From: Betaproteobacteria bacterium
GTDB lineage: Bacteria; Pseudomonadota; Gammaproteobacteria; Burkholderiales; Casimicrobiaceae
Assembly: GCA_027492485.1 (NCBI GenBank)
Contig: JAPUER010000075.1
Coordinates: forward strand, 21,740 to 75,764
Direction of reading: 5' to 3'
Length of the DNA stretch: 54,025 nt
Positions 12,632-43,557 of the stretch are shown here, piece by piece. Position numbers and translations under genes: made by a program. Under the pieces are notes generated by a model. It saw nothing but the letters and a program-made list of their open reading frames with translations. It searched no databases and was not told the origin of the DNA. How positions within the stretch are numbered: position 1 is the stretch's first letter; every line of letters begins with the position of its first letter.

Positions 12632-12749
12632 CAGCTTTTAGCGGAATGCGCCGGTGAAAATGGGCTCGCAGCGCGATTTGTGCAAAAGTCGACTTCTGCC
12701 CAATACCGCTCCGGTGCCCTTATGCAACAAGGCTTTCGTCGAAAAGCTG
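12632..12749 (+). repeat. 118-bp repeat family, copy A
   Basis: It begins CAGCTTTTAGCGG and ends GTCGAAAAGCTG, with the central AAAAGTCGAC ending at offset 62 and GCCCTTATGCAA in the right half. Its last base directly abuts the stop codon (12750-12752) of the minus-strand DUF1499 gene. Confidence 0.8.
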
Positions 12750-13259
12750 CTAGCTTGCCGGCGATTCGTCGAAGCGCTGCCGCACGGCCTCGACCCGCGC
12801 CCGGTTGACCCCGTGGTCGCCATAGCCGAGGCGCGACGCCGAGCGCACGTGAATGACGTGGGCGGCGGTGTCGAGCCGCGCCTCGAAGTCATCGACGAAG
12901 CGCATGGTCCTGGTGCGACATTCCGCATGCAGATAGCCGTCCTCGACCTTGATGAGCGTGACGCCGCCCATCGTCTGCAGAACGCCGCCGAGCTTCGCCA
13001 TCGCGGCGACGCCATCGCCACGGTAGGCAATCGGCGCGATGTAGGCCGGGTGCGTCGGCGCGATGCCTTCGCTGACCACGCTGTTGGGCGTGCGCTTCGG
13101 TGGCGACAGGTGCCCGCCGTGAACGCCAAGGGTGCTCGGGCGACCGCCAAACCAGATCGATTTCTCGCGCCCGAAGAGGTTGACGAACAGCACCCACAGC
13201 AGAAAGCCGGTGACCAGCACCAGCAGCAGCAACGCCAGGACGCGCAGCACCACGATCAT
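12750..13259 (-). CDS. DUF1499-family membrane-anchored protein
   Basis: It has 169 residues with one N-terminal membrane segment (about 2-26), then WFGGRPSTLGVHGGHLSPPK. The soluble part shows typical DUF1499 features: PNSVVSEG, then VEDGYLHAECRTRTMRFVDD, and DTAAHVIHVRSASRLGYGDHGVNRARVEAV at the end. The function of the family is unknown. Its start overlaps the stop of the upstream HAD gene by ATGA, so the two are co-translated. Downstream its stop codon touches repeat copy A. Confidence 0.85.
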   Translation of the reverse strand: MIVVLRVLALLLLVLVTGFLLWVLFVNLFGREKSIWFGGRPSTLGVHGGHLSPPKRTPNSVVSEGIAPTHPAYIAPIAYRGDGVAAMAKLGGVLQTMGGVTLIKVEDGYLHAECRTRTMRFVDDFEARLDTAAHVIHVRSASRLGYGDHGVNRARVEAVRQRFDESPAS

Positions 13260-14077
13260 GATCGCCCGCCGTCACGCCGCGCGTCGATCAGGCGGCCGGC
13301 GAATTCGACGAAGCCGGCGCCGCATTCCCTGCTGCACAGCCAGGCGGGCGGCACTGGGATCTTGCCGAGCGCCGCGGCGACGTTGGCAACTCCCACCGAC
13401 AACGGCATCTGCGCGAACAGCGAGGCGTCGTTCGGCGAATCGCCGATGAAGGCAGCACGCAAGGCCAACTGTTCGCGGTCGAGACCGAACGCCTGCTGCA
13501 TGAGCGGATAGACGCCGTCGGCCTTCTCGTTGGCCGGATAGTAGGCGTGGATGTGGATGCTGCTCACGGCCGTAAGATAGCCGGCGTCGCGCATCAGCGC
13601 AACGATCTGCGCCACCACGTCGTCGCCGGCGCGCGGCACCTGCTCGGCGTAGTCGACGGCAAGATCGGTCAGGCGATACGGCTGGTCGGCGCTGACCTTC
13701 ACCTGCGGAAAGCGCATCGCGATGCGGTCGCCGAAGTCGCGCAGTTTTTCGATGTAGCCGGCGCCGCGATGCTGCTCGTGAATTACGCGCTGAATGGCGC
13801 GGCCGCTGGCCCGATCCTGCCATGCGATGACGCCGCCGTTCTCGGTCACGCAGGCGGCGATCGGCCAGGTCGACAGCATCACGTTGCCCCAGCCCGACGG
13901 CCGCCCGGTCACCGGCACCGCCACGATGCCCGCATCGCGCAGCGCGAACAGCATGGCATAGGTTTCGGCGTGCATCAGGCCATGCGTGGTGAAAGTCTCG
14001 TCGACGTCGAACAGCAGGTAGTCGATGCCGCGCAGTGCTTCACGAGAGAGATCGGACAGGGGTTGCAGGCGGGGCAT
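13256..14077 (-). CDS. HAD-superfamily phosphatase (Cof/IIB type)
   Basis: A 273-aa soluble hydrolase. Motif I is DVDETFTTHG (nucleophile Asp24, acid/base Asp26), motif II is VPVTGRPSGWG, and the late motif is GDSPNDASLF with the metal-binding aspartates. The cap lies between, as in class IIB sugar phosphatases. The substrate cannot be read from the sequence; sugar-phosphate or phosphoglycerate phosphatases are the closest types. It is read with the DUF1499 gene. Upstream lies a long inverted repeat (14085-14274) separating it from glpD. Confidence 0.85.
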   Translation of the reverse strand: MPRLQPLSDLSREALRGIDYLLFDVDETFTTHGLMHAETYAMLFALRDAGIVAVPVTGRPSGWGNVMLSTWPIAACVTENGGVIAWQDRASGRAIQRVIHEQHRGAGYIEKLRDFGDRIAMRFPQVKVSADQPYRLTDLAVDYAEQVPRAGDDVVAQIVALMRDAGYLTAVSSIHIHAYYPANEKADGVYPLMQQAFGLDREQLALRAAFIGDSPNDASLFAQMPLSVGVANVAAALGKIPVPPAWLCSRECGAGFVEFAGRLIDARRDGGRS

Positions 14078-14084
14078 TGGTTTT

Positions 14085-14274
14085 CTTTGACGCAGATTTG
14101 CGCAGATTTGACGCAGATTAGCGCTGATTAGTTGTGTGTTGAGTGTGCGGTCATCTTGCTATGAACGCTGCGCGGCGTGCCTTCACTGCGTTCACGGCGG
14201 CGGTAATTCGGCCATCGCAACAGGAAAGAAATCTGCGGTAATCTGCGTCAAATCTGCGCAAATCTGCGTCAAAG
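14085..14274. repeat. 36-bp perfect inverted repeats of CGCAGATTT units
   Basis: Arms 14085-14120 and 14239-14274 are perfect inverted copies built of GACGCAGATTT and TGCGCAGATTT units; the spacer is 118 bp and holds no clear gene. A related pair lies at 25026-25138. It sits between glpD and the HAD gene and can form a large hairpin, possibly ending glpD transcription. Confidence 0.85.
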
Positions 14275-15810
14275 CTCATAGAGCGCACGAGCAACCAACT
14301 CACGAATGCGAACGAGCGACTCGGGCGAAGCGAGCAGGTTGGTTTTGGTGCGCCGTTGCAGCATGGACTCGATCGAGCGCGACCATTCGTGATCGCGCAG
14401 ATAGGCGATCTCGGCTTCGCTGAAGGTGTCGTCGAACACTTCGCCCATGTCGCGCTGCGCCAGCGCGTCGGCAGCGAGCCCGTAACGGTTGGCCAGGCGA
14501 TGCGCATAGCCATTGCCGAGGCCACGTGCGGCGATGTCGACCGCCAGCGCGGCCAGCGTCGCCGGCGTGGCGCCGGCCTGCAACGGCGTGTCGGTCCACG
14601 AGGTTTTCTTCGCGTCGGGAAAAAACGGCAGCAGCTTCTCGAGCGCGTGTTCGGCAAGCTTGCGGTAGGTGGTGATTTTGCCGCCGTAGATGTTGAGCAG
14701 CGGCGCCCCACCGTCGTGATGATCGAGCTTCAACGTGTAGTCGCGCGTGATCGCGGAGGGATCGTCATCGCCGTCGTCGTACAGCGGACGCACGCCGGCA
14801 TAGCTGGCGACGATGTCGGCACGGCTGAGCGGTCTGGCCAGATAGCTGTTGGCGAGATCGAGCAGGTACTGCGTCTCGTCGTCGCTGATCTGCGGCGCAT
14901 CGAACGCGTCGACGGCGACATCGGTGGTGCCGATCAGCGAGAAGCGTTCGAAATACGGAATCACGAACACGATGCGACCGTCGCGGTTTTGCAGGATGTA
15001 GGCATGCGGCGCGTCGTGCACGCGTGGCACGATGATGTGCGAGCCCTTGACGTGCTTGACCGTTTCCTTCGTTGGCGGCGTGGCGATGCTCGACAACAGC
15101 GCTTTGACCCACGGCCCCGAGGCATTGACGATGGCGCGGGCGTGCACGGTGTGCTGCGCGCCGGTCGCATCTTCGAGCGAAGCGCGCCACGCGGTGCGCG
15201 CCTCGCCGTCGACCGCGACGCGCTCCGCGTGCGCGAAGCGCACTCCCACACGCACGTCGGCGCCGCGGGCGCGGGCGTCCTTCGCGTTTTCCACCACCAG
15301 ACGGGCGTCGTTGACCTGGGCGTCGGAGTAGACGAAGCCGTCGGTGAATTGCGCCTTGAGGCCGGCGCCCCAGTGTGCACCCTTGCCGTCGGATGCGAGC
15401 GAGGTGGCAAAGGACTTCGGCAGCGACTGCTTCTGGCCGCTCCAGCCGCCGAGGCGGTCGTACAGAAACAGGCCCGCGCGCAGCATCCACCGGGGTCGCA
15501 GATGCGGCTCGTGCGGCAACACGAATTGCAGCGGCTTGATCAGGTGCGGCGCCACGCGCAGCAGCACTTCGCGCTCGGCCAGCGCCTCGCCGACGAGGCG
15601 AAATTCATAGTGCTCGAGATAGCGCAGGCCACCATGAATGAGTTTGGATGACCACTGCGAAGTATGCGCCGCGAGATCGTCCTTCTCGACCAACAACACC
15701 GACAGACCGCGACCGACGGCGTCGCGCGCAATGCCGGCGCCGTTGATGCCGCCGCCGATAATCAGCAGATCAACGGGCGGCGGGACAGACGGAGCGGCGG
15801 CAGGCGACAT
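14269..15810 (-). CDS. glpD: Aerobic glycerol-3-phosphate dehydrogenase
   Basis: This membrane-associated FAD enzyme oxidises glycerol-3-phosphate to dihydroxyacetone phosphate and passes electrons to quinone. With the start at MSPAAAPSVP it has 513 residues, matching the family; an upstream in-frame ATG would add a poorly conserved 20 aa. The FAD site is LLIIGGGINGAGIARDAVGR, followed by SSKLIHGGLRYLEHYEF, a hallmark of GlpD. Later come GAFVYSDAQ-type FVYSDAQVNDARLV, the IGTTDVAVD segment and YAGVRPLYDD. The C-terminal helical domain is complete. No glpK or glpF is nearby. The final codons enter the repeat arm at 14269-14274. Confidence 0.94.
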   Translation of the reverse strand: MSPAAAPSVPPPVDLLIIGGGINGAGIARDAVGRGLSVLLVEKDDLAAHTSQWSSKLIHGGLRYLEHYEFRLVGEALAEREVLLRVAPHLIKPLQFVLPHEPHLRPRWMLRAGLFLYDRLGGWSGQKQSLPKSFATSLASDGKGAHWGAGLKAQFTDGFVYSDAQVNDARLVVENAKDARARGADVRVGVRFAHAERVAVDGEARTAWRASLEDATGAQHTVHARAIVNASGPWVKALLSSIATPPTKETVKHVKGSHIIVPRVHDAPHAYILQNRDGRIVFVIPYFERFSLIGTTDVAVDAFDAPQISDDETQYLLDLANSYLARPLSRADIVASYAGVRPLYDDGDDDPSAITRDYTLKLDHHDGGAPLLNIYGGKITTYRKLAEHALEKLLPFFPDAKKTSWTDTPLQAGATPATLAALAVDIAARGLGNGYAHRLANRYGLAADALAQRDMGEVFDDTFSEAEIAYLRDHEWSRSIESMLQRRTKTNLLASPESLVRIRELVARALYEL

Positions 15811-15936
15811 GGCGCAATGGTAGCGAAGCGCACGGGCGCAGGCGGTCGGGGCGTTCATTGCGCCGCCCACATTGCGCCAAGGGATATGCCGGAGCCACTA
15901 AAATGATGGCTTCCAACGAGCAACAACGAGTGCCCC

Positions 15937-16260
15937 ATGACAGACAGTGCGCGTGACGTACAAGCCGAAATCGACAACCTCGTTCGCGGCAACCGGGTGG
16001 TGCTGTTCATGAAGGGTACGCCGCAGTTTCCGCAATGCGGCTTCAGTGCCGCGGCGACGCGCATCCTCGATGCCGCCGGTGTCGACGAGTATGCGGCCGT
16101 CAATGTGCTGGCGGACGACGAGGTGCGCGAAGGCGTCAAACAGTACGCGCAGTGGCCGACGATTCCGCAGCTCTACGTCAATGGCGAGTTTGTTGGCGGC
16201 GCCGACATCATGCGCGAGATGCATGAGTCGGGCGAGCTGGCGAAGCTGCTCGCCGCGTAA
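15937..16260 (+). CDS. grxD: Monothiol glutaredoxin, Grx4 type
   Basis: A 107-aa protein that binds and hands on [2Fe-2S] clusters in the cytoplasm. The active site is CGFS at residues 34-37, preceded by KGTP (26-29), with WPTIPQLYVNGEFVGGADI supplying the cis-proline and glutathione-binding residues. The length and all key residues match the single-domain class. It is divergent from glpD and convergent with atpC, with which it shares a terminator. Confidence 0.95.
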   Translation: MTDSARDVQAEIDNLVRGNRVVLFMKGTPQFPQCGFSAAATRILDAAGVDEYAAVNVLADDEVREGVKQYAQWPTIPQLYVNGEFVGGADIMREMHESGELAKLLAA

Positions 16261-16327
16261 GCTGCCTCGCATGACCACCGGCGGCGCGCGAATCGCATTC
16301 GTCGCCGGCACTGCGCAGACAAAAAAG

Positions 16328-16351
16328 AAAGGGCGACCGAAGTCGCCCTTT
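16328..16351. terminator. Bidirectional terminator between grxD and atpC
   Basis: The stem AAAGGGCGAC / GTCGCCCTTT with a 4-nt loop is flanked by A-run on the left and T-run on the right, so it can end both grxD (plus) and the atp operon (minus). Confidence 0.92.
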
Positions 16352-16375
16352 TTTATCGGCTGCGGCGATGCCGTG

Positions 16376-16789
16376 CTATTTGCGGCGCAGCTTGCGGATC
16401 GCGGCCAGTTGCGCAACCGCAGAAGCCAGTTCGGCCTGCGCGGCGGCGTAGTCGAGCGCGGCATCCTTGTTGCGCAGCGATTCTTCGGCGCGCTGCTTGG
16501 CTTCGTTGGCCTTGGCTTCATCGAGATCGTGGCCGCGGATCGCGGTGTCGGCAAGCACCGTCACCACATCCGGCTGCACTTCGAGGATGCCACCGGCGAC
16601 GAAGACGAACTCTTCGCTGCCATCGGCCTTTTCGATGCGCACTGCGCCCGGCTTGATGCGCGTGATCAGCGGCGTGTGCTTGGGCAGAATGCCCAGCTCG
16701 CCCGCTTCACCCGGCAGCGCGACGAACTTCGCCTCGCCCGAGAAGATCGAGGCTTCCGCGCTGACAACGTCTACGTGGATGGTGGACAT
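16376..16789 (-). CDS. atpC: ATP synthase epsilon subunit
   Basis: The protein of 137 residues belongs to the central stalk of F1 and modulates ATP hydrolysis. The N-terminal beta-sandwich shows [35 protein letters not shown] and [20 protein letters not shown]; the C-terminal helical hairpin is complete. It ends the atp operon, 13 bases after atpD, just before the shared terminator. Confidence 0.96.
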
Positions 16790-16802
16790 CAGCTTGCCTT
16801 AA

Positions 16803-18257
<1,455 letters not shown>

Positions 18258-19136
18258 TCAGACGGCGGCCGCGCCGCTGACGATTTCGGAGAGTTCTTTG
18301 GTAATGGCGGCCTGACGCGCCTTGTTGTAGCTGAGCTGCAGCTCGGCAATCACGTTCTTCGCGTTGTCCGACGCCGCCTTCATCGCCACCATGCGCGCCG
18401 ATTGCTCGGACGCCATGTTCTCGGCGACGGCCTGATACACGAGGGCTTCGACGTAGCGGACCAGCAGCTCGTCGACTACGGTCTGCGCATCCGGCTCGTA
18501 GATGTAGTCCCAGCTATAGGCGCGCTTTTCGTCGCTGCTCTGCTCGAGCTTGTCGGCAGTGAGCGGCAACAGTTGCTGCACCACGGCTTCCTGCTTCATG
18601 GTGTTGATGAACTTGGTGTACGCCAGATACACCGAGTCCACCTCGCCTTTTTCGTAGGCGTCGAGCTGCACCTTGACGGCGCCGATGAGCTTTTCGAGGT
18701 GCGGCGTGTCTCCAAGGCCGATCACGTGCGACACCAGATCGGCGCCCATGCGGTTCATGAAGCCGAACCCCTTGTTGCCGATCGCCGTCACCTGTACCTT
18801 GTTGCCGGCGGCATCCAGTTCCTTGAACTTGGCCACCACGGCGCGCAGGATGTTGGTGTTGAGACCGCCGCACAGCCCCTTGTCGGTGGTCACGACGATC
18901 ATGCCCGCCTTGTTGGCGCCGGTGCGCTTGACGAGGAAGGGATGACGGTATTCGGGATTGGCCCCGGACATGTGCGCGGCAATGTTGCGCACCTTGTCGG
19001 CATACGGACGCGCTGCCCGCATGCGCTCCTGCGCGCGCCGCATTTTGGATGCGGCGACCATTTCCATCGCCTTGGTGATCTTGCGCGTGTTTTGCACGCT
19101 CTTGATCTTGGTTCTAATCTCTTTTGAGCCAGCCAT
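18258..19136 (-). CDS. atpG: ATP synthase gamma subunit
   Basis: The rotor shaft of F1, 292 residues. The N-terminal helix has [20 protein letters not shown] and the C-terminal helix has [20 protein letters not shown], which together form the coiled coil. The middle has [18 protein letters not shown]. The length and both termini agree with the family. Confidence 0.97.
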
Positions 19137-19183
19137 GATTTGCTTTCGCTGTTTTTACTTGGCGCTTGTTTGGCAGCTCTGGA

Positions 19184-20725: not shown

Positions 20726-20755
20726 TGCTTACTCCAGCACGGAGGGATTTGGTTT

Positions 20756-20842
20756 AAGGACGAAGGACGAAGGACGAGTGACGAGAACACTCGTCACCGC
20801 TTCTCTTCTGTCGTCATTCGTCATTGGTCATTCGTCCTGCGC
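20756..20842. repeat. GACGAA-heptad repeat inside the atp operon
   Basis: Tandem GGACGAA units (20756-20776) face inverted TCGTCATT/TGGTCATTCGTCC units (20811-20842), so the transcript between atpH and atpA can fold. A second copy lies at 26863-26940. The family is a short intergenic repeat of 7-bp units. Confidence 0.75.
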
Positions 20843-20848
20843 GTAGCG

Positions 20849-21385: not shown

Positions 21386-21387
21386 GG

Positions 21388-21858
21388 TTACAGCTCGGCC
21401 TTGAGTTGCGCCAGCAGGTCGGAATGCACCTGCGGATTGATTTCGCGATTGAGGATGCGCTGCGCACCCACCACCGCGAGATCGGCCACGCGATCGCGCA
21501 GCTCTTCCTTGGCCTTGACCGAGAGCTGGGCGATTTCGTCCGCAGCCATCTGCTTTTCACGCTCGCCGGCGGCCTTGGCATCGGCTTTCGATGCTTCGAT
21601 CGTGGCGTTGCGCTGCTTGTCGGCCTGCGCGACGATGTCGGCCGCCCTGGCCTTGGCCTCCGCGATGAGCTTGTCGACTTCTTTCTGCGCCAGCGCGAGC
21701 GAGGCTTTGCCCTTCTCGGCCTCGGCCAGACCGTCGGCGATCTGGCGGCGGCGGCCTTCTACGGCGTCTGCCAGCGGCGGCAGCACGAACTTGTAGACGA
21801 CGAACAGAAAGATGAAAAAGCCGATGCCTTGCAGCAGGAGTGTCATGCCGAGATTCAT
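21388..21858 (-). CDS. atpF: ATP synthase b subunit
   Basis: Peripheral-stalk subunit, 156 residues. It begins MNLGMTLLLQGIGFFIFLFV, one membrane helix, then PPLADAVEGRRRQIADGLAEA and a long Ala/Lys/Glu-rich coiled coil. The C-terminal VGAQRILNREINPQVHSDLL matches the delta-contacting end. It lies 36 bases after atpE. Confidence 0.96.
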   Translation of the reverse strand: MNLGMTLLLQGIGFFIFLFVVYKFVLPPLADAVEGRRRQIADGLAEAEKGKASLALAQKEVDKLIAEAKARAADIVAQADKQRNATIEASKADAKAAGEREKQMAADEIAQLSVKAKEELRDRVADLAVVGAQRILNREINPQVHSDLLAQLKAEL

Positions 21859-21894
21859 GCGGCGACTCCGTTCAAAAGTGTTGTTCGGCGGTGA

Positions 21895-22212
<318 letters not shown>

Positions 22213-22252
22213 TTAAGTAAGTAAAGAAATCCGTACGAAATCGGGGCGGGGC

Positions 22253-23716: not shown

Positions 23717-23834
23717 CAGCTTTTGCGCAAGACGCCCATTCGATATGGGCTCATGGCCATAAACGACTAAAAGTCGATATGAGGTCGTTTATTGCTTTCT
23801 GCCCAATGTAGATGGGCATTGCAGCGAAAAGCTG
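23717..23834 (-). repeat. 118-bp repeat family, copy D
   Basis: The best-structured copy: ends CAGCTTTTGCGC and GCGAAAAGCTG, two perfect hairpins GCCCAT-TCGAT-ATGGGC (plus strand) and TGCCCA-TCTACAT-TGGGCA (minus strand), and central TCGAC at offset 58-62 when read on the minus strand. Its right end (23834) directly abuts the stop codon of the wzt-like gene (23835-23837). Confidence 0.85.
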
Positions 23835-24992: not shown

Positions 24993-25025
24993 GGTCGTTG
25001 ACTGGGCGATGACGTTGAAGCTGAT

Positions 25026-25138
25026 CTTTGACGCAGATTGCCGCAGATTTGACGCAGATGAACGCAGATTTCTTTCTTGCTTTGTGGCATGGAAAATCTG
25101 CGGCAATCCGTGTCAAATCTGCGCAAATCTGCGTCAAA
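25026..25138. repeat. CGCAGATTT inverted repeat between wzm and wzt
   Basis: Arms of GACGCAGATTT-like units (about 25026-25072) and their inverse (about 25092-25138) flank a short spacer. The family is the same as at 14085-14274. Here it interrupts what should be a tight two-gene operon. Confidence 0.8.
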
Positions 25139-25154
25139 AAAAGCAGCAGGCTCA

Positions 25155-25919
25155 TCACAGGTAGTCGTCCACATGTGGCGACACGCGGCGGAAGAACGCG
25201 TAACCGGTAAGCGCCACGACCGCGCCACCCGCCAGCAACCACGCGTCCGCGAACGCGAAGCCCGCGCCCGCAAGGTAGGTGTCGTGCATGCGCGCGATCG
25301 CGTGGGTGAACGGATTGGCGAGTACGGCATCGCGCCACGCAGCGGGTATTGCGTCGAGCCCGTACTGGATGCCGCAGACGAACGACAGCAGCATGAACAG
25401 CGGCCCCAGCATGCCCTCGATGTCGCGCACCAGAATCTGCGCCGTCGAGACGGTCCAGGCGAGCCCCATCGCGGTGAGCCCGAGCGCCAGCCACGCCGGC
25501 AACGAGAACAGGACACCGCTCAGGTGTAGCGAAAAACCGAGGCCTTTGAACAGGATGACGATCACCGTCAGCGCCAGCCAGTTCAGCGCAAAGGTCACCA
25601 GCACTACCGACAGCGGCACCCAGGCCCGCGGCAATGCGGTCTTGGTAATCAGCGCAGACTGCGCGATCAACGACGTCGCGCTGCGCGTCACGCTCTCGGC
25701 GAACGCCAGCCACGGCCAGAGCCCGACTGCGAGGTAGGCAACAAAGCTGTCGCCGTACTGCGCCGGCACCGGCGAGCGCATGAACAGCCCGAACACCAGC
25801 GCATAAACGCCCAGCGTCAGCAGCGGCTGCGCCAGCCACCACACCGGCGACAGCGCGCCGCCGAGGAAACGGTTCTTCAGCTCGCGCTCGACGAGGGCGC
25901 GAAAGAGGGGATTCAACAC
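25155..25919 (-). CDS. Wzm-type ABC-2 polysaccharide permease
   Basis: Inner-membrane permease, 254 residues with six hydrophobic segments. It begins LFRALVERELKNRFLGGALSP followed by PVWWLAQPLLTLGVYALVFG, the classical ABC-2 O-antigen/teichoic-type N-terminus, and has the GLGFSLHLSG and QILVRDIEGMLGPLFML segments. Together with the ATPase it would export an undecaprenyl-linked glycan. No glycosyltransferase genes are in the window, so the polymer is unknown. Confidence 0.9.
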   Translation of the reverse strand: MLNPLFRALVERELKNRFLGGALSPVWWLAQPLLTLGVYALVFGLFMRSPVPAQYGDSFVAYLAVGLWPWLAFAESVTRSATSLIAQSALITKTALPRAWVPLSVVLVTFALNWLALTVIVILFKGLGFSLHLSGVLFSLPAWLALGLTAMGLAWTVSTAQILVRDIEGMLGPLFMLLSFVCGIQYGLDAIPAAWRDAVLANPFTHAIARMHDTYLAGAGFAFADAWLLAGGAVVALTGYAFFRRVSPHVDDYL

Positions 25920-29003: not shown

Positions 29004-29120
29004 CAGCTTTTGCCGTCATGCCCTGTTGCATTAGGGCATACGGCCGTATCTCGCTAATTGTCGACTTTTGGCGAATTCGCCTGCTAGGCCCTACAGACAA
29101 AGGCGTTCAGCGAAAAGCCA
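29004..29120 (-). repeat. 118-bp repeat family, copy B
   Basis: Read on the minus strand it begins TGGCTTTTCGCTG, has CAAAAGTCGAC in the centre, the perfect hairpin ATGCCCT-AATGCA-ACAGGGCAT, and ends GGCAAAAGCTG. It lies between the convergent hydrolase and gatB genes, seven bases after the hydrolase stop codon. Confidence 0.8.
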
Positions 29121-34910: not shown

Positions 34911-34912
34911 TC

Positions 34913-35449: not shown

Positions 35450-35461
35450 CGCAAGGCGAAG

Positions 35462-37387
35462 ATGGCCGCCGAACTGCGCAACTACGACCAGGAGCTGTTC
35501 TGGTACCAGCGGCGGCTAACGCTCTCGGCGGTCGTCGTCGTGCTCTGTTTTCTTGGGCTGCTGGGACGCTTCTTCTTTCTGCAGGTCGTTCAACACCGGC
35601 ACTTCGCTACGCTGGCAGAGGCCAACCGCATCGACGTTCAGCCGGAAGCCCCCAATCGCGGCATCATCACCGACCGCAACGGTGTCGTACTGGCCTCCAA
35701 CTATTCCGCCTACACGCTGGAACTGAACCCGCAGAAAATCGCCGACCTCGAGGCTGCAATCGATGAGGTGGGCAAGATCGTCGACATATCGGCGCGCGAC
35801 CGCCGCAGGTTCAAGCGTCTCTATGAAGAGTTCCGCACCAACGATAGCCTGCCGCTCAAGTCGCGCCTGACCGATGACGAGGTCGCCCGCATCGCCGCCA
35901 ACCGCTACCGGCTACCGGGCGTCGAGATCAAGGCCCGCCTGTTCCGCCAGTATCCCTTCGGCGAGGTGGCATCGCACGTGATCGGCTACATCGGCCGCAT
36001 CAGCCAGGGCGAGAAGGAGCGCATCGAGGCTGCCGGACTGACTGCGAATTACAAGGGGTCCGACTATATCGGCAAGGTCGGCATCGAACTCTCCTACGAG
36101 AAGGAACTGCACGGTACCGCCGGTGCCACCGAGGTCGAAGTCGATGCCTCGCGCCGCGTCGTGCGCACTCTGTCGCGCAAGCCGTCGACGACCGGCAACA
36201 ACCTGCAGCTCTCGCTCGACATCCGCCTGCAGAAGATCGCCGAAGATGCTTTCGGCAACAAGCGCGGCGCGCTGGTGGCGATCGAGCCCGCCACCGGCGA
36301 CGTGCTCGCCTTCGTCAGCAAGCCGGGCTATGACCCGAACCTGTTCGTCGACGGCATCGATCCGCAGAACTGGGAAGCGCTCAACACCTCGGAGGACAAA
36401 CCGCTGCTCAACCGGCCACTGCGCGGCGCCTATCCGCCCGGCTCGACCTACAAGCCGTTCATGGCGCTGATGGCGCAGGAACTGGGCATCCGCACCGCCC
36501 AGCAGGCTATCAGCGACCCCGGCTTCTTCCGCCTCGGCGGCGGTTACTGGCGCGACGACAAGGCAGGCGGGCATGGTGCCGTCGATCTGGTGAAATCGAT
36601 CGCCGTGTCCTGCGACACCTATTACTACCAGGTGGCGGCGGAGGCCGACATCGACGACTGGGCGAAGTTCATGAAGCCCTTCGGCTTCGGCCAGAAGACG
36701 GGCATCGACATCGACGGCGAGCTGCCCGGCATCCTGCCGACGCGGGAATGGAAGGCGAAGCGCTTCCCGAAAGATCCGAAGCTGCACGTCGGCGACCAGG
36801 TCTCGCTCGGCATCGGGCAGGGCTTCAATACTTTCACGCCGCTGCAGATGGCCTATGCCACGGCGATTCTCGCCAACCGTGGCGTCGCCTTCAAGCCGCA
36901 CCTGGTCAAACGGGTGCAGGACGCCCGCACCGGAGAATCGCGACTGACGCAACCGGCGCCGGCGTACAGCATCCCGCTGCAGGATGCGCATGTCGACGCC
37001 GTGCTGCGCGGCCTCGCCGGCGTGGTGAAAGAGGGTACCGGACGCACCGCGTTCCTGAATGCAAAGTACACGAGCGGCGGCAAGACCGGCACCGCGCAGG
37101 TGTTCGGCCTGCGCGGTGGCGAATACAAGGCGTCGCAGGTGGCCGAGCGGCTGCGCGACCATGCCTGGTACATCGCGCTGGCGCCGCTGGAGAAGCCGAC
37201 CATCGCACTGGTCGCCTTCGTCGAGAACGGCGGCTTTGGCGCCGAGGCGGCGGCCCCCATCGCCCGCAAGGTGATGGATGCGCATTTCGATTCGTCGCTG
37301 CTCGAGGCGGCGCTGAAGCGCAATGTCGATCGCAACGAGCAGCTTGCTGCGGCGGCACAGGCGGCGGAAGTGAGGCGCGCACGATGA
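35462..37387 (+). CDS. mrdA: Penicillin-binding protein 2 (transpeptidase)
   Basis: Peptidoglycan DD-transpeptidase of the elongasome, 641 residues. One N-terminal anchor (about 20-42), then the pedestal domain with EAPNRGIITDRNGVVLASN. The catalytic motifs are Ser328-Thr-Tyr-Lys (PPGSTYKP), Ser383-Cys-Asp and Lys541-Thr-Gly (GGKTGTAQV). It is 12 bases after mreD, and its stop codon overlaps the rodA start, so the pair is coupled. Confidence 0.97.
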   Translation: MAAELRNYDQELFWYQRRLTLSAVVVVLCFLGLLGRFFFLQVVQHRHFATLAEANRIDVQPEAPNRGIITDRNGVVLASNYSAYTLELNPQKIADLEAAIDEVGKIVDISARDRRRFKRLYEEFRTNDSLPLKSRLTDDEVARIAANRYRLPGVEIKARLFRQYPFGEVASHVIGYIGRISQGEKERIEAAGLTANYKGSDYIGKVGIELSYEKELHGTAGATEVEVDASRRVVRTLSRKPSTTGNNLQLSLDIRLQKIAEDAFGNKRGALVAIEPATGDVLAFVSKPGYDPNLFVDGIDPQNWEALNTSEDKPLLNRPLRGAYPPGSTYKPFMALMAQELGIRTAQQAISDPGFFRLGGGYWRDDKAGGHGAVDLVKSIAVSCDTYYYQVAAEADIDDWAKFMKPFGFGQKTGIDIDGELPGILPTREWKAKRFPKDPKLHVGDQVSLGIGQGFNTFTPLQMAYATAILANRGVAFKPHLVKRVQDARTGESRLTQPAPAYSIPLQDAHVDAVLRGLAGVVKEGTGRTAFLNAKYTSGGKTGTAQVFGLRGGEYKASQVAERLRDHAWYIALAPLEKPTIALVAFVENGGFGAEAAAPIARKVMDAHFDSSLLEAALKRNVDRNEQLAAAAQAAEVRRAR

Positions 37388-38487
37388 TGCAGCAACTGTG
37401 GGCCAAGCTCACCGATCATCTCGATCCCTTCCTGTTCGCCATCGTGACTGCCATTGCCGCGCTCGGGCTGCTGGTGCTGTTCAGTGCCGCCAACGAGACG
37501 ATGGGGCGGGTTGTCTCGCAATCGCAGAAGGTGGTGATCGCGGTGGCGATCATGATCCTGATCGCCAATCTCTCGCCGCAATTCATCGCCCGCTTTGCGG
37601 TGCCGCTCTACACCATCGGCATTGTGCTGCTGCTCGGCGTCGCGGTTGGCGGCGAGGTGGTCAAGGGCGCGCGTCGCTGGTTGAAAATCCCCGGCGTCGG
37701 CAACATCCAGCCGTCGGAAATCATGAAGATCGCCCTGCCGCTGATTCTGGCGTGGTACTTCGAGCGCCACGAAGGCAGCATGAACTGGCGCAACTTCGCG
37801 GTCGCCGCGCTACTGGTCGTAGTCCCCTTCGGCCTGGTCGTGCGGCAACCCGATCTCGGCACCGCGCTCTTGATCGGTGCCTGCGGCTTCTACGTGCTTT
37901 ACCTCGCCGGGCTCGACTGGCGCATCATCGTCGGTGGCGCGCTGTTCGGCGCGCTTGCCTTCTGGGCTGCATGGGAATTCAACTGGCTGCACGATTACCA
38001 GAAGGAACGCATCCTGACCGTGTTCAACCCGCAGCAGGACGCGCAGGATGCCGGCTGGCACACCACCCAGGCGGCGATCGCCATCGGCTCCGGCGGACTG
38101 CTCGGCAAGGGTTGGCTGAACGGCACGCAGACCCATCTCGAATTCCTGCCGGAGAAGCACACCGACTTCATCTTCGCCGTCTACGGCGAGGAGTTCGGTC
38201 TGCTCGGCTGCGCGCTGCTCATCGTGCTCTATCTGCTGATGATCGGGCGCTGCTTTCTGATTGCCGCCAACGCGTCCACGCTGTTCGGCCGCCTGATGGC
38301 CGGCTCAATGACGCTGATGTTCTTCACCTACGCCTTCGTCAACATGGGCATGGTGACCGGCATGCTGCCGGTGGTCGGCGTGCCACTGCCATTCATGAGC
38401 TTCGGCGGGACGGCGCTGATGACTTTGTTCATCGCAGTCGGTATCCTGATGAGTGTGCAAACCCATCGCAAGCTGGTGAATTCCTGA
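37384..38487 (+). CDS. rodA: Rod-shape SEDS glycosyltransferase RodA
   Basis: Peptidoglycan polymerase partner of PBP2, 367 residues with about 10 membrane helices. It begins at ATGATG overlapping the mrdA stop. SEDS features are ARRWLKIPGVGNIQPSEIMK, VRQPDLGTALLIGACG, LNGTQTHLEFLPEKHTDFIF and GVPLPFMSFGGTALMTLF. The catalytic Asp lies in the large extracytoplasmic loop region. Confidence 0.97.
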   Translation: MMQQLWAKLTDHLDPFLFAIVTAIAALGLLVLFSAANETMGRVVSQSQKVVIAVAIMILIANLSPQFIARFAVPLYTIGIVLLLGVAVGGEVVKGARRWLKIPGVGNIQPSEIMKIALPLILAWYFERHEGSMNWRNFAVAALLVVVPFGLVVRQPDLGTALLIGACGFYVLYLAGLDWRIIVGGALFGALAFWAAWEFNWLHDYQKERILTVFNPQQDAQDAGWHTTQAAIAIGSGGLLGKGWLNGTQTHLEFLPEKHTDFIFAVYGEEFGLLGCALLIVLYLLMIGRCFLIAANASTLFGRLMAGSMTLMFFTYAFVNMGMVTGMLPVVGVPLPFMSFGGTALMTLFIAVGILMSVQTHRKLVNS

Positions 38488-38489
38488 CC

Positions 38490-39425
38490 ATGAAGCGGCG
38501 CGCGGCATCGCTGCTTGCACTGGTGGTGGCGGTCGCCGCAATGCTGCTGGCGGGCTGCGCAAGCAAGCCGGCGCCGCGCGGCACGACGACCGCCGGCAAG
38601 TCACCGGCCGCAACCACGCCGCGCCCCGGTGCCTACTACAAGGACGATGGCCCCGCCGCAGCGACCCCGGAAGGGCTCGACCGCATCGCCGACGCCGAGC
38701 CACGGCTGGAGCCGCTGCATCGCTTTGCCAACCGGCCGTACAACGTGTTCGGCGTCGACTACATGCCGCTGACCACGCTGACGCCACTGCGCCAGCGTGG
38801 CACGGCGTCGTGGTACGGCCGCAAGTTTCATGGCCAGAAGACCGCCATCGGCGAGGTCTACGACATGTTCGCGATGACCGCTGCGCATCCGACCGCGCCA
38901 CTGCCCAGCTATGCCCGCATCAGCAACCCGCGCAGCGGTCGCAGCGTGGTGGTACGCATCAACGACCGCGGGCCGTTTCACCCCGGCCGCATTGTCGACC
39001 TGTCCTATGCGGCGGCGCACCGCCTGGGCATCGCCCAGGGCGGTAGCGGCGAGGTCGATTTCGAACTATTGCTGCCGCCTTTCGCACCGTCCGCGGCGCC
39101 TCCGGTCGCGATCAATATTGCCAGACCGGCGGATCCGGTGCCGCCGGCCGAACCCGCGCCGATCGCAACCGGCCCTGCTGCCATCGCCGCCAGGGAAGCT
39201 TTTTACGTGCAACTCGGCGCTTTTGGAAACTTTGCCAACGCTCAGGCGTTCCAACAACGGATGAGCGCCGAACTCGCCACCACTCCCCGCGTGCAGCAGG
39301 TCGATTCGCTGTACCGCGTTCGCCTCGGCCCCTTCGACAGCCGCGACGCCGCCATCGTCGAACGCGACCGCGCGCAGGGCATACTCGCCACCTCACTCCC
39401 CATCACCAGCGGCAGCATTCGATGA
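38490..39425 (+). CDS. rlpA: Septal-ring lytic transglycosylase RlpA
   Basis: Outer-membrane lipoprotein of 311 residues with lipobox LLAGC (Cys23). The double-psi beta-barrel reads GTASWYGRKFHGQKTAIGEV then YDMFAMTAAHPTAPLPSYAR and VVVRINDRGPF, keeping the His and Asp residues linked to activity in Pseudomonas RlpA. A Pro-rich linker leads to a C-terminal SPOR domain (FYVQLGAFGNFANAQAFQQR) that binds denuded glycans. It lies two bases after rodA, and its stop overlaps the tolB start. Confidence 0.93.
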   Translation: MKRRAASLLALVVAVAAMLLAGCASKPAPRGTTTAGKSPAATTPRPGAYYKDDGPAAATPEGLDRIADAEPRLEPLHRFANRPYNVFGVDYMPLTTLTPLRQRGTASWYGRKFHGQKTAIGEVYDMFAMTAAHPTAPLPSYARISNPRSGRSVVVRINDRGPFHPGRIVDLSYAAAHRLGIAQGGSGEVDFELLLPPFAPSAAPPVAINIARPADPVPPAEPAPIATGPAAIAAREAFYVQLGAFGNFANAQAFQQRMSAELATTPRVQQVDSLYRVRLGPFDSRDAAIVERDRAQGILATSLPITSGSIR

Positions 39426-40693
39426 CCCCAAGATTCACGCGTTTCATCGCGCTCACTGTCCTGTTGCTCGCCGGCGGCGTCCGCGCCCAGTTGACCATCG
39501 ACATCGTCGGCGTCGGCGCGCAGCAGATCCCGGTGGCGGTCGCCGGGTTCGCCGGCCCGGACGCTAGCGCGCAGCAAATGTCGTCGGTGATCGAGGCCGA
39601 CCTCGGTCGCAGCGGCCTGATCAAGACCGTCGGCAGCAACGGCTTGCCGCGCAGCGCCGAGCTTGCCGCGGTGCCGTTTGCCGAACTCAAGGCGCGCGGC
39701 GCCGACGCCGTGGTCATCGGTGCCGTGCAGCCTGCCGGCAACGGCCAGTACAGCGTGAGCTTCCGGCTCGCCGACGTCCCCAAGCAGACGCAGATGACCG
39801 GGCTTGTCTTCATGGTCGGCGCGAAAGACCTGCGCGCCACGGCGCACCGCATTGCCGACATCGTCTACGAGCAATTGACCGGCGAGAAAGGCGTGTTCAG
39901 CACCCGTCTCGCCTACGTGTCGAAGTCGCCGGGGCGTTTCCAGTTGATCGTGTCGGACAGCGACGGCGCCAATTCCGTCGCGGTCGTCAACTCGAGCGAA
40001 CCGATCATTTCGCCCGCCTGGTCGCCCGACGGCAGCCGTCTCGCCTACGTGTCGTTCGAAGGCCGCAAGCCGAGCGTCTATGTGCAGAACGTGGCCAATG
40101 GCGAACGTGCGCTGCTGGTGCGCGCGTCGGGCAACCAGTCGGCGCCGGCGTGGTCGCCCGATGGCCGACGCATCGTGTTCGCCTCGTCGCAGGCCGGCGG
40201 CACCCAGCTTTTCGTCGCCAACGCCGATGGCGGCAATCTGCGCCGTCTGACCAACAGCGGCGCCATCGATACCGCCCCCAACTGGGCGCCGGACGGGCGC
40301 ATCTACTTCATGAGCGATCGCGGCGGCTCGCCGCAGATCTACCGCACGTCACCCGACGGCGGCAACGCCGACCGCGTGACCTACGAAGGCAGCTACAACG
40401 CCAATCCCCGCGTGGCCGCCGACGGCAAGAGCATGGTCTTCGTACGCCGCGATGGCGGGCGCGAGATGCTGGCGGTGCAGGATTTCGCGTCGCGCCAGGT
40501 GCAGTTGCTGACGCAGGGCCCGGTCGACGAATCGCCCTCGTTCGCCCCCAACGGCAAACTGATCGCCTATGCGTCGGTGTATAACGGCAGAGGCGTGCTG
40601 GCCACGGTATCGGCCGACGGCCGCGTCAAGCAGCGTCTGGGCGCGAGCAACGCCGATGTGCGCGAACCGGCCTGGGGGCCGTTGCCGCGTTGA
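39422..40693 (+). CDS. tolB: Tol-Pal system protein TolB
   Basis: Periplasmic beta-propeller protein, 423 residues with a signal peptide (about 1-22). After an N-terminal alpha/beta domain come WD40-like PD40 repeats: SPAWSPDGSRLAYVSFEGRK, SAPAWSPDGRRIVFASSQ, TAPNWAPDGRIYFMSDRGG and ESPSFAPNGKLIAYAS. It links Pal to the inner-membrane Tol proteins. It is unusual that tolQ, tolR and tolA are not upstream: rlpA takes their place. Confidence 0.96.
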   Translation: MTPRFTRFIALTVLLLAGGVRAQLTIDIVGVGAQQIPVAVAGFAGPDASAQQMSSVIEADLGRSGLIKTVGSNGLPRSAELAAVPFAELKARGADAVVIGAVQPAGNGQYSVSFRLADVPKQTQMTGLVFMVGAKDLRATAHRIADIVYEQLTGEKGVFSTRLAYVSKSPGRFQLIVSDSDGANSVAVVNSSEPIISPAWSPDGSRLAYVSFEGRKPSVYVQNVANGERALLVRASGNQSAPAWSPDGRRIVFASSQAGGTQLFVANADGGNLRRLTNSGAIDTAPNWAPDGRIYFMSDRGGSPQIYRTSPDGGNADRVTYEGSYNANPRVAADGKSMVFVRRDGGREMLAVQDFASRQVQLLTQGPVDESPSFAPNGKLIAYASVYNGRGVLATVSADGRVKQRLGASNADVREPAWGPLPR

Positions 40694-40799
40694 CCGGTCA
40701 GCAACACCGTATTTCCGCAGCAAGCAGATCGATAACGACGAATTAACCCGCAATGCTGACTGATCGCGAAACGGCCAGCTACAAACGAAAGGGATGGCA

Positions 40800-41393
40800 A
40801 TGAAACAACTCTGGAAACTGGTTCTCGCAATCGCCGCAGCCGGCACGCTGGCCGCCTGCTCGTCAACGCCCGAGCAGGCAACGACCGTGGAGGATCGCAA
40901 TGCGGCGGCCACGGCGGGCACCGCAGGTACCGCCGGCACGGCATCGGCGCCGACCGCAGCGGCGACCAGCGGCGTAGGCAACCAGAGTGGCGCCTCCGGC
41001 AGCAATCTGCAGGGCAGCAACATGAGCGGCAATCCGTTGAAAGACCCGCGCAGCCCGCTGTCGCGCCGCGAAATCTTTTACGACTACGACAGCTTCGTGG
41101 TGAAGGACGAGTACAAACCGCTGCTGGAAGCCCACGCCGCCTATCTCAAGGGCAACCGCAACGCGCGCATCACGGTCGAGGGCAACACCGACGAGCGCGG
41201 CAGCCGCGAATACAACCTGGCGCTCGGCCAGAAGCGCTCGGAGAGCGTCAAGCGTGTGCTGACGCTGCTCGGCGTCAACGAAGCGCAGATCGACACCGTG
41301 AGCTTCGGCGAGGAAAAACCGCGCAATCCGGCGTCGAGCGAAGCCGCGTGGTCGGAAAATCGCCGCTGCGATCTGCGTTACGCCGGGGAATAG
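40800..41393 (+). CDS. pal: Peptidoglycan-associated lipoprotein Pal
   Basis: Outer-membrane lipoprotein with lipobox LAACS. An ATG six bases earlier (40794) is also possible, but GAAAGGG is spaced better for 40800. An Ala/Gly/Thr-rich tether with AGTAGTAGT repeats precedes the OmpA domain: IFYDYDSFVVKDEYKPLLEA, then ITVEGNTDERGSREYNLALG and KRSESVKRVL, including the conserved Asp and Arg that hold diaminopimelate. Confidence 0.96.
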   Translation: MKQLWKLVLAIAAAGTLAACSSTPEQATTVEDRNAAATAGTAGTAGTASAPTAAATSGVGNQSGASGSNLQGSNMSGNPLKDPRSPLSRREIFYDYDSFVVKDEYKPLLEAHAAYLKGNRNARITVEGNTDERGSREYNLALGQKRSESVKRVLTLLGVNEAQIDTVSFGEEKPRNPASSEAAWSENRRCDLRYAGE

Positions 41394-41396
41394 CCG

Positions 41397-42308
41397 ATGC
41401 CCTTGCTGCGTACTCCGTCCGTTCCCCGCTTTGCCGGAAGGCCGCTGCCGGCGGCCGCTGCCGCGCTCGCGCTGAGCCTCGCCACCGCCGCCCACGGCGG
41501 ACTGTTCGACGACGAGGAAGCGCGCAAGCAAATCCTGCAACTGCGCAACCAGATCGCGGAGACGCAGCGCACGCTCGATCAGCGCGTGGCCGAGCTCGAG
41601 GCACAGGCGCGCAACCGCAGCATCATCGACCTCTTCAATCAGGTCGAAACGCTGAAGACGGAGTTCGCCCGCCTGCGCGGCCAGATCGAGCTGCTGCAAA
41701 ACGAGATGGAGAACACACAGAAGCGCCAGCGCGATCTGTACGTCGATCTCGACGGCCGTCTGCGCAAGGTCGAGACCCAGCTTGCGGCGGCGCAGGCGCC
41801 GGCACCGGCCATGATGCCGACGACCGTCGGCCCTGCGGGCAGCACGCCGCCACCCGTTGTGCCACCGACCGGCGTCGGCAGCGCCGATCCGTCGCGCGCC
41901 GCCCCGCCAGCCGCGGCGCAAGCGGTGGCCGATCCGGTGGCCGAACAGCGCGCCTATGACCTTGGTCTGGAGCAATTCCGCGCCGGCCGTTTTGCCGAGG
42001 CGGTGGCGAGCTTCCAGAATTTCGTCCGCAGCTTCCCGCGCAGCACGCTGCTGCCGTCGGCGCAGTACTGGATCGGCAATTCGCTTTACGCCACCCGCGA
42101 CTATCGCGGCGCCATCGCTGCGCAGCGGCAGTTGCTGGCGCAGCATCCCGACAGCGCCAAGGCGTCGGATGCCTTGCTCAACATCGCCACCGCGCAGTCC
42201 GATCTCGGCGAGCTGCAGGCGGCCCGCGGCAGCCTGCAGGAAGTGATCAGCAAGTACCCATCGTCGGAAGCGGCGACCAAGGCACGGCAACGGCTGGGTG
42301 TGCGCTGA
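41397..42308 (+). CDS. cpoB: Cell-division coordinator CpoB (YbgF)
   Basis: Periplasmic protein of 303 residues that couples Tol-Pal constriction with peptidoglycan synthesis. A signal peptide (about 1-34, ending near AAHGG) is followed by a trimerising coiled coil (EEARKQILQLRNQIAETQRT), a Pro/Ala linker, and three TPR units (AYDLGLEQFRAGRFAEAVAS, SAQYWIGNSLYATRDYRGA, ASDALLNIATAQSDLGEL). It starts three bases after pal. Confidence 0.94.
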   Translation: MPLLRTPSVPRFAGRPLPAAAAALALSLATAAHGGLFDDEEARKQILQLRNQIAETQRTLDQRVAELEAQARNRSIIDLFNQVETLKTEFARLRGQIELLQNEMENTQKRQRDLYVDLDGRLRKVETQLAAAQAPAPAMMPTTVGPAGSTPPPVVPPTGVGSADPSRAAPPAAAQAVADPVAEQRAYDLGLEQFRAGRFAEAVASFQNFVRSFPRSTLLPSAQYWIGNSLYATRDYRGAIAAQRQLLAQHPDSAKASDALLNIATAQSDLGELQAARGSLQEVISKYPSSEAATKARQRLGVR

Positions 42309-42351
42309 CCGTGCCGGCGCCGCTGGCGCGGCGCGTCAGCACCGACCGGCA

Positions 42352-43422
42352 ATGACGAGTGACGATGCGGCCGGCAACTTCGCCACCCGCATCGTCGTCT
42401 GGCAACGCTGCCACGGTCGTCACGATCTGCCGTGGCAGAACACGCGCGACGCCTATCGCATCTGGCTGTCCGAGATCATGCTGCAGCAGACGCAGGTGAC
42501 GACCGTGCTGCCGTACTACGAGCGCTTTCTCGCCCGCTTTCCCGATGTGCTGTCACTGGCCGCCGCCGGCGAGGACGAGGTGCTGGCGCTGTGGGCTGGC
42601 CTCGGCTACTACAGCCGCGCCCGCAACCTGCATCGCGCCGCGCAGATGGTGGCGACGCAGCACGGCGGGCGCTTCCCGGCCGCCGTCGACGCGCTGGCCG
42701 CGCTGCCCGGCGTCGGCCGCAGCACCGCTGCGGCGATCGCGGCGTTCGCCTACAACGTGGTGGCGCCCATTCTCGACGGTAACGTCAAGCGGGTGCTGGC
42801 GCGGCACGCCGCAGTCGACGGCTTTCCGGGCGCCGGTGCCGTCGAGAAGAAGCTCTGGCAGATCGCCGGCGCGCGCCTGCCGGCGTCTGCCGCCGACATC
42901 GTCGCCTACACCCAGGGGCTGATGGACCTCGGCGCCACCGTCTGCACGCGTGCCGAGCCACGCTGCGACGCCTGCCCGGTGGCGGCCGATTGCCTGGCCC
43001 GGACGCAGGGTCGCACAGCGGAACTGCCCACCGCGCGACCGGCGAAAGCGCTGCCGGAGCGGCGGCAGCGCTATCTGCTGCTGCGCCACGGCGGCGATGT
43101 GCTGCTGGTCAAACGCCCGGCGCCCGGCATCTGGGGCGGGCTCTGGTGCCTGCCGGAAATCGGCGACAGCGACGACGCGTTGCACAGCGCGCTGCGCGAA
43201 CGCTATGGTGTGCACAATATCGACGGCACCCGGCAACGGCCGGACATTGTGCACAGCTTCACCCACTTCCGCCTGACGATGTCGGTGACCGAAGTCATCG
43301 CGGCCGGCCGCACGCCGGTGGCCAGCGAAGCCGGCACGCTGTGGCTCGCGCTGTCGGACACGAACGGCGCCGCGCTGCCGAAGCCGGTCAGCCGGCTGCT
43401 GCTGGCGCTTGCCGACGAGTGA
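42352..43422 (+). CDS. mutY: Adenine DNA glycosylase MutY
   Basis: Removes adenine mispaired with 8-oxoguanine, 356 residues. The catalytic Glu41 is in LSEIMLQQTQVTTV, the HhH motif is LPGVGRSTAAAIAAF and Asp142 is in ILDGNVKRV. The [4Fe-4S] loop is Cys198-x6-Cys205-x2-Cys208-x5-Cys214. The C-terminal NUDIX-like 8-oxoG reader domain is present (ADVLLVKR-type GDVLLVKRPAPGIWGGLW). It is the last plus-strand gene of the cluster. Confidence 0.96.
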   Translation: MTSDDAAGNFATRIVVWQRCHGRHDLPWQNTRDAYRIWLSEIMLQQTQVTTVLPYYERFLARFPDVLSLAAAGEDEVLALWAGLGYYSRARNLHRAAQMVATQHGGRFPAAVDALAALPGVGRSTAAAIAAFAYNVVAPILDGNVKRVLARHAAVDGFPGAGAVEKKLWQIAGARLPASAADIVAYTQGLMDLGATVCTRAEPRCDACPVAADCLARTQGRTAELPTARPAKALPERRQRYLLLRHGGDVLLVKRPAPGIWGGLWCLPEIGDSDDALHSALRERYGVHNIDGTRQRPDIVHSFTHFRLTMSVTEVIAAGRTPVASEAGTLWLALSDTNGAALPKPVSRLLLALADE

Positions 43423-43439
43423 CGCGGTCGCTGGCAATA

Positions 43440-43557
43440 CAACTTTTTGGCAGAAACGCCATTGCTACAGGGCTTGGCGGTTGAAATAGCGGAAAGTCGA
43501 CATCCTGCTGATTTACCGCTCGCACCCTTATGCAATGGCCGTTACGGCAAAAAAGCT
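43440..43557 (+). repeat. 118-bp repeat family, copy C
   Basis: It begins CAACTTTTTGGC, has GAAAGTCGAC ending at offset 62 and ACCCTTATGCAA in the right half, and ends GGCAAAAAAGCT. It lies between the convergent mutY (stop 17 bases away) and OmpA-like lipoprotein genes. Confidence 0.75.

Follow-up and report, generated by a model that had tools for sequence, protein, structure and literature searches.

A dispersed 118-bp palindromic element in one Burkholderiales genus as a putative recognition site for a two-fold symmetric protein assembly

The stretch of DNA analysed here, hereafter the window (54,025 nucleotides; positions 21,740 to 75,764 of contig JAPUER010000075.1, assembly GCA_027492485.1, a betaproteobacterial genome of the Casimicrobiaceae), contains five complete copies, A to E, and one half copy of a dispersed element of about 118 bp (Table 1). 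Copy B is placed between a tRNA/integrase stretch and an open reading frame (ORF) ending at 12750, copies D and E are each flanked by convergent genes, and the half copy adjoins another dispersed repeat and overlaps a predicted ORF. The five copies had been proposed, from the sequence alone, to form one family with shared ends, and all five are matched on both strands, with scores far above chance, by a profile of the sequence alone that was trained on 43 exact-ended copies of the same genome (B and C included, A, D and E not). The proposed length of 116–118 bp and the central TCGA-type core are borne out in every copy, TCGA occupying positions 58–61 in all five. The shared ends hold exactly in B and C, as CAGCTTTT...AAAAGCTG, whereas A, D and E deviate. 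Both paired hairpins of the original prediction exist, with shifted labels: in the order used here GCCCT:AGGGC belongs to copy D and GCCCAT:ATGGGC to copy C, whose left inner dyad is GCCCATTCGATATGGGC (23734–23750). Their paired changes, taken then as structural compensation, are mostly two spellings of a dyad-symmetric DNA motif. The family is, as supposed, large, of near-constant length, strongly divergent in its interior and evidently selected, and it has no match in Rfam or in the literature searched.

Table 1. Copies of the element in the window. E values of copies A–E refer to the + strand.
Feature	Position	Strand	Centre	Ends or extent	Length	Profile match
Copy A	299..414	.	TCGA 356-359	degenerate ends CACCTTTT...AAAAAGCC	116 bp	cmsearch 39.6 bits, E 2.2e-11
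Copy B	12632..12749	.	TCGA 12689-12692	exact ends	118 bp	73.4 bits, E 6.3e-22
Copy C	23717..23834	.	TCGA 23774-23777	exact ends	118 bp	72.9 bits, E 9.4e-22
Copy D	29004..29120	.	TCGA 29061-29064	end AAAAGCCA	117 bp	E 1.5e-14
Copy E	43440..43557	.	TCGA 43497-43500	start CAACTTTT, end AAAAAAGCT	118 bp	E 2.6e-15
Half copy	51680..51749	.		centre and right half		22.7 bits, E 4.2e-6

Centred on TCGA, the element forms an imperfect palindrome. From the outside inwards, each half starts with two bases, mostly A/T, followed by CAGCTTTT, Y-G-c-t-G and AA; an inner dyad comes next, and then cGC, AAA/TTT and the central AAGTCGACTT. The inner dyad, GCCCATTgaATatGGGC in the dialect of this genome, is centred ~33 bp from the middle. 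Terminal inverted repeats CAGCTTTT/AAAAGCTG are present in 47 exact copies, where the full conservation of the ends is there by construction, since the ends selected these copies; in copies found by the profile the ends are naturally decayed. The information per element amounts to 81 bits in this genome, 64 in the related genome G005 and 108 and 118 in two metagenome-assembled genomes (MAGs), values that are inflated in all sets except G005 by selection, wholly or partly, on exact ends. Identity between left and right halves is 0.427 within a copy and 0.414 across copies; it is 0.408 among left halves and 0.410 among right halves (positions 9–44, 43 copies). The two halves thus behave as independent draws from one weight matrix, as would be expected where a symmetric protein reads duplex DNA, but not where a fold pairs the halves of one molecule. 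Counted from the centre, the GC content of each half has minima near 4, 13, 23, 31–36, 44, 52 and 60 bp. Within 8.5–12.5 bp the best period is 9.65–9.75 bp in three dialect groups (bootstrap 9.55–9.80), which are not independent of each other, as they have end and centre motifs in common, and a permutation test over positions gives the periodicity a P of 0.002 or less. This phasing is at most suggestive of bending or wrapping of the DNA.

The folding tests agree with the independence of the halves. Half-swapped chimeras showed unchanged folding energy in five of six groups (z -0.81 to 0.04; in this genome -38.89 versus -38.42, z -0.81), a result that decided against RNA structure at the level of single copies. 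Measured against dinucleotide shuffles, such copies do fold better (z -0.99 to -6.51 in 16 of them), but this is expected of any palindrome and the folding is a by-product. No consistent stem, beyond the shared dyad motif, emerged from a fixed-column covariation test on 86 halves, nor did RNAalifold detect covariation in 43 copies; positions described as paired change largely independently between copies. A register-free local-stem test gave a modest excess (z 3.55; by group 0.4 to 3.3). In a test of left against right arms the excess (z 3.5 in this genome and 3.8 in G005, -0.2 to 1.2 elsewhere, 1.0 in the 43 exact-ended copies) is read as variation in quality among copies, not as pairing. Pairing at the level of dialects, in an alignment of 48 sequences, exceeds shuffled alignments (covariation 0.209 versus 0.160) and also slid controls, as expected where related dialects are mixed, and across dialects only 42.8 and 58.8% of the cells of the inner stems form pairs. 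In the window only the tRNA reaches the Rfam gathering score, and around copy B, at E up to 10, the best match is mir-2024 (25.6 bits versus a gathering score of 69). A structured RNA, one of the two natures first proposed for the elements, is therefore not supported. One element, at 206056–206165 of the 359-kb contig C79, and its G005 orthologue have a common terminator-like AAGCCCCGCTCCGGCGGGGCTTTT in the right half, the remainder being diverged; a terminator or 3'-end role of the family was rejected, since there is no orientation bias.

Elements are spelled in dialects. Inner dyads of the form CGACC..GGTCG are found in the MAG sets JAEUPL, JAGNQL and JAKPSO; in JANXNI, 19 of 20 copies measure 116 bp and the half consensus has GGGGCT; and G007, G011 and G002 (seven loci each) carry GCCC-type dyads, often GCCCAATT, with weaker ends. 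By log-odds, both halves are of the own type in all full elements scored from G005 (10/10), G015 (5/5) and the window (5/5), and of the other type in eight of the ten scored from G012, the last two being one mixed and one weak own-type. Of the 30 full elements scored from these four genomes, 28 follow the type of their genome in both halves, with matrices trained partly on the same genomes. At the G012 sites orthologous to copies D and E, the other dialect is found (GCCC..GGGC replaced by CGACC..GGTCG). The copies of a genome thus switch dialect together without having been copied from one another, which suggests a trans-acting reader.

The elements are not recent mobile repeats, contrary to the suggestion of a mobile element: there are no recent copy pairs and no target duplications, and positions are inherited. 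Pairs among 64 full copies of this genome average 0.503 in identity and reach at most 0.661, a value within the maxima of column-shuffled sets (0.616–0.667); the spread is wider than after shuffling (standard deviation 0.054 versus 0.040), which fits copies of unequal quality. The highest pair per genome lies at 0.610–0.703 among the 6–20 exact-ended copies in each of six MAGs. No target-site duplication was observed around 43 copies of this genome, where direct-repeat identity of the flanks equals that of shuffled flanks for 2–10 bp (z -1.3 to 0.7), and the other genomes gave no such signal up to 5 bp. One C79 element (196060–196380; L054:16060–16380) is split at its centre by an inserted repeat of ~186 bp with 38-bp inverted arms, and the centre, GTCGRCTT, stands on both sides of the insert, resembling a target duplication.

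The genome G005 is syntenic with C79 (82% identity across 242 kb of aligned blocks). Seven of the 32 profile matches in C79 lack synteny; of the remaining 25 (24 elements, some of them partial or weak matches), 23 (22 elements) are occupied at the syntenic interval in G005, eight of these 22 resting on intervals of 2–10 kb, which are weaker evidence. Where both intervals are tight (<700 bp), 14 of 15 C79 elements are present, and in the opposite direction 24 of 27 G005 elements are found in C79. Retention of 22 out of 24 has P ~1e-10, given that 31 of 111 eligible intergenic intervals are occupied. One of the two elements absent from G005 lies within a larger insertion, and four apparent absences relative to MAGs, at 75–80% identity, could not be aligned and so speak neither for nor against the clean empty sites foreseen in relatives. 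For copies C, D and E of the window, G005 carries an element at the matching place (E has one in G015 too); between the equivalents of 46769 and 47071, G005 has an element that the window lacks. Aligned orthologous copies have a mean identity of 0.54 (20 pairs, one at 0.84). Aligned on the centre, orthologous and non-orthologous copies are 0.53 and 0.46 identical, respectively, for 17 pairs (the 20 without 84379, 161448 and 300031, which are partial or doubtful; pair 146887 aligns poorly), and 0.57 and 0.46 for 11 tight-interval pairs. From the centre to the end motif, the orthologous/non-orthologous values of the 17 pairs are 0.85/0.86, 0.44/0.41, 0.58/0.46, 0.41/0.31, 0.51/0.44, 0.53/0.41 and 0.69/0.62, and in the flanks 0.35/0.27–0.28. 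Each site has thus retained its pattern, length and place, most of its free bases having been replaced at about the rate of the flanks.

Many further copies exist in the genome: exact CAGCTTTT...AAAAGCTG ends with 90–110 bases between them occur at 47 places, the reversed pattern at none. The whole of C79 gave 32 profile matches, corresponding to 31 elements (one split in two; partials counted), and its reversed sequence a single match with E above 1. This density, 86 per Mb, extrapolates to ~350 elements per genome, and 500 kb of G005 to ~380. By home-made gene calls, 35 of 38 elements are intergenic, one is at the window edge and two overlap a predicted ORF. We observed no preference for gene orientation (19 tandem, 10 divergent and 6 convergent, against a background of 66, 37 and 19). 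Spacing is more even than simulated, with a coefficient of variation (CV) of 0.64 in C79 versus 0.95 on intergenic intervals (P 0.004), and of 0.55 in 400 kb of G005 versus 0.97 in a uniform simulation (P 0.0006); the elements are solitary, and no two lie closer together than 2.75 kb (C79) or 1.85 kb (G005 stretch). The 108 listed G005 sites evenly cover the chromosome (chi-square 10.3, 8 degrees of freedom), and none of their gaps is below 5.6 kb, 7.6 gaps under 3 kb being expected.

Within the samples searched, the element is convincingly found in one genus only. It is present in 16 of 17 genomes of this Burkholderiales genus, G009 (2.5 Mb) having few, and 47 other genomes of the family gave one weak match (E 0.009); per-genome counts in the genus and family searches, taken from up to 150 or 54 matches, are lower bounds. 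Outside the family, the range rests on searches of 399 genomes of the order and 398 of the phylum with exact-end patterns, which do not capture the diverged dialects of G002, G007 and G011: the former gave three genus members and four single matches (against two for the reversed control), the latter the own genome only. In a pattern scan across GTDB, the stretches listed (80 of 103) come from MAGs with Burkholderiales, Proteobacteria or Pseudomonadota in their titles, whose genus membership is deduced from the element itself except in JAEUPL, and from five isolated records of other groups, set aside as chance (~6 expected by estimate). No exact-pattern match was found in IMG/VR contigs, and no carriage by phages was seen there.

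Independent half-sites, two-fold symmetry, maintenance locus by locus, dialect switching and, in two stretches, near-regular intergenic spacing are the observed properties of the element. From these sequence patterns we propose that each 118-bp element is a putative site in duplex DNA that would be recognised by a sequence-specific protein assembly of two-fold symmetry, encoded elsewhere in the genome, a reading which we hold to be about as probable as not. The putative binder would act in trans, recognise the pattern and co-evolve with it. It would be symmetric, make multiple contacts and might bend or wrap ~120 bp of DNA, since the alternation of A/T and G/C tracts and three dyads ~33 bp apart suggest DNA bent or wrapped on a protein. 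Its role would be chromosomal, such as anchoring or the partition of domains or supercoils every ~12 kb, and not the control of single genes; diffusible supercoils were described to travel in 10-kb domains (PMC3420936). A more specific and tentative proposal, possible but in our judgement doubtful, is a genus-specific nucleoprotein particle at ~350 dedicated sites that would divide the chromosome into ~12-kb units; each site would be kept by selection, or by a drive, of sufficient strength to survive the replacement of most free bases, and site and putative binder would co-evolve into species dialects. In those parts of the literature searched for one, no dedicated, sequence-encoded partition of a bacterial chromosome was found.

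Several observations weigh against a recognition site of this kind. No binding protein was found: histones (PF00808) are encoded in none of 64 genomes of the family, for which reason a histone was rejected as the binder, and GyrA is ordinary (an 867-aa frame with six blades). The wrapping inference is weakened by a second GC peak near 7.85 bp, equal to that at 9.6–9.75 bp in the set of this genome and G005 (1.00 versus 0.97–0.98) and 0.33–0.74 of the first peak in the other groups. One group, JANXNO (n=10), folds better than its own half-swaps (z -2.72), and a modest excess of perfect local hairpins remains (z 3.3 in this genome, 2.9 in G005), part of which probably comes from terminator-like hairpins inside a few copies. 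The 108 listed G005 sites are not more regular than random (CV 0.945 versus 0.987, P 0.34), which may come from subsampling. Elements are gained and lost (2/24 and 3/27 absent by direction, several more relative to other MAGs), and copy B has no counterpart beside the syntenic right-hand gene in G005, its left flank not being syntenic. The genome G016 (2.6 Mb) has no element, so the sites are dispensable there. Finally, tens of bits at ~350 sites need strong selection at each, possibly more than a diffuse structural role provides, and drive would maintain such information more cheaply.

The last point leads to the highest-ranked and serious rival, a drive akin to that of uptake sequences, ranked so because strong selection would then not be needed site by site; we nevertheless rate it unlikely. 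The element would then be a word for DNA uptake or biased recombination, alleles with a good word being preferentially taken up or converted, and dialects would track the receptor. Such a drive would fit one dialect per genome followed by nearly all sites, the independence of the copies in sequence and a cheap upkeep of so much information at ~350 sites. GTDB places the Neisseriaceae in the same order, which counts in its favour, and their DNA uptake sequences (DUS) resemble the element in having many dispersed copies, genome-wide species dialects (ComP receptor) and no sign of transposition. Eight DUS dialects were reported, with uptake bias as the favoured explanation, for 10- to 12-mers whose copy numbers range from 1543 to 3770 among the genomes named (Frye et al., PMC3630211). 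Unlike these short and far denser words, the element measures 118 bp, is two-fold symmetric and almost exclusively intergenic and occurs about once per 12 kb (31 in 359 kb), and a word read by an uptake pilus would have no obvious need for a 118-bp palindrome.

An anciently expanded and domesticated miniature inverted-repeat transposable element (MITE), whose transposition before the radiation of the genus would have left the CAGCTTTT inverted repeats and the intergenic position, and which would later have been recruited, seems rather improbable to us. Bacterial MITEs were described as having terminal inverted repeats, a length below 200 bp, A+T richness and intergenic placement (PMC2229807), all matched by the element, and some elements lie inside genome-specific insertions (79994 in this genome; segment positions 247144 and 362568 in G005). 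ERIC, RUP, RPE and other MITEs are likewise intergenic palindromes of ~100–170 bp, most with terminal inverted repeats, but they are counted as mobile, most have target duplications, and RUP copies are highly conserved, whereas the present copies are ~50% identical, lack duplications and inherit their positions. Young copies are missing in this genome and in the six MAGs, and the motif positions are better preserved than the rest. Moreover, such a descent addresses only the origin of the element, not its present function.

We consider it still less probable that the elements are strong DNA gyrase sites, that is, a gyrase wrap optimised in sequence, one per topological domain, like bacterial interspersed mosaic elements of type 2 (BIME-2) or the strong gyrase site (SGS) of Mu. 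The E. coli gyrase motif was described as 130 bp long and symmetric, with periodic GC around a cut of 4-bp stagger, and as degenerate, thought to be read indirectly, with a period of 10.75 bp; BIME-2 lie between genes, serve as gyrase sites and may have a part in organising the genome (PMC6379681). Like these sites of ~120–130 bp, the element (~122 bp) is symmetric on a 4-bp centre, TCGA, alternates in GC content, is intergenic as BIME-2 are, and recurs at ~12 kb, near the spacing of supercoil domains. The reading fits poorly, however: power at 10.75 bp is only 0.19–0.31 of that at the best period, and a peak at 7.85 bp is added; CAGCTTTT, GGGC and TCGA are near-fixed and dialects exchange specific bases; there is no clustering of repetitive extragenic palindromic (REP) units; and the enzyme, whose GyrA has an ordinary build here, is general in bacteria, the element having been found, in the samples searched, in one genus only. 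An element of this genome (C15:13780–13897, 62.3 bits) starts ~100 bp past the last GyrA blade (13683), which may be chance, since one gene in five is estimated to neighbour an element.

Other systems share single traits with the element. The sites matS, parS and those of SlmA/Noc are palindromic chromosomal protein sites kept by selection, as the element would be, but they are under ~25 bp and confined to certain regions, whereas the element is 118 bp long and evenly spread along the G005 chromosome. Integron attC sites also retain symmetry despite diverged sequence, but RYYYAAC/GTTRRRY cores were not seen by eye in the element, which does not occur in arrays and shows no folding constraint at the level of copies. 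REP/BIME are 20–40-bp hairpin units in close clusters, unlike the solitary element. Very improbable, finally, is an action of the element on neighbouring transcripts, whether as a structured RNA, as a bidirectional terminator or as an mRNA-processing hairpin: this reading could draw on the folding of single copies beyond shuffles, the AAGCCCCGCTCCGGCGGGGCTTTT hairpin of one orthologous pair, the small local-stem excess and the dialect-level pairing, but equal folding of half-swaps, the lack of RNAalifold covariation, the incompletely paired inner stems, the indifference to orientation (10 copies between divergent genes) and the lack of an Rfam family stand against it.

We also noted other features in the window. 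An integrase-like gene (11019–12518) has an NCBIfam PRK09692 domain at 226 bits, under the cut-off of 434, and beside it lies a tRNA (12445–12518), copy B being on the far side of the latter. The two occurrences of a 114-bp repeat (156–269 and 51536–51649, 77% alike), which contains GCTCAGGATGAC, are about 30 bp away from copy A and the half copy, respectively. In C79 and the window, three of six sites of this repeat type are within 120 bp of an element (0.23 and 0.15 for random intergenic points), and in G005 none of three is. Tandem repeats of ~21 bp, AAATCTGCG...GTCAAA, form two clusters (14063–14294 and 25022–25159) in an inverted arrangement, and C79 has a similar run near 85.6 kb. An inverted repeat of 138 nt, 87% complementary, joins 46834–46971 and 53414–53551, with 6.4 kb between them, and an EmrA/EmrB-like efflux gene pair occupies 2698–5681.

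Should the elements be recognition sites of the kind proposed, the positions of chromosomal domains or of drive sites would be readable straight from the sequence in these bacteria, and the site and its binder would be comparable across dialects, a ready-made genetic test. The puzzle is how tens of bits are kept at each of ~350 places, which calls for either strong selection at every site or molecular drive, and either answer bears on the organisation of bacterial chromosomes and on the persistence of non-coding motifs.

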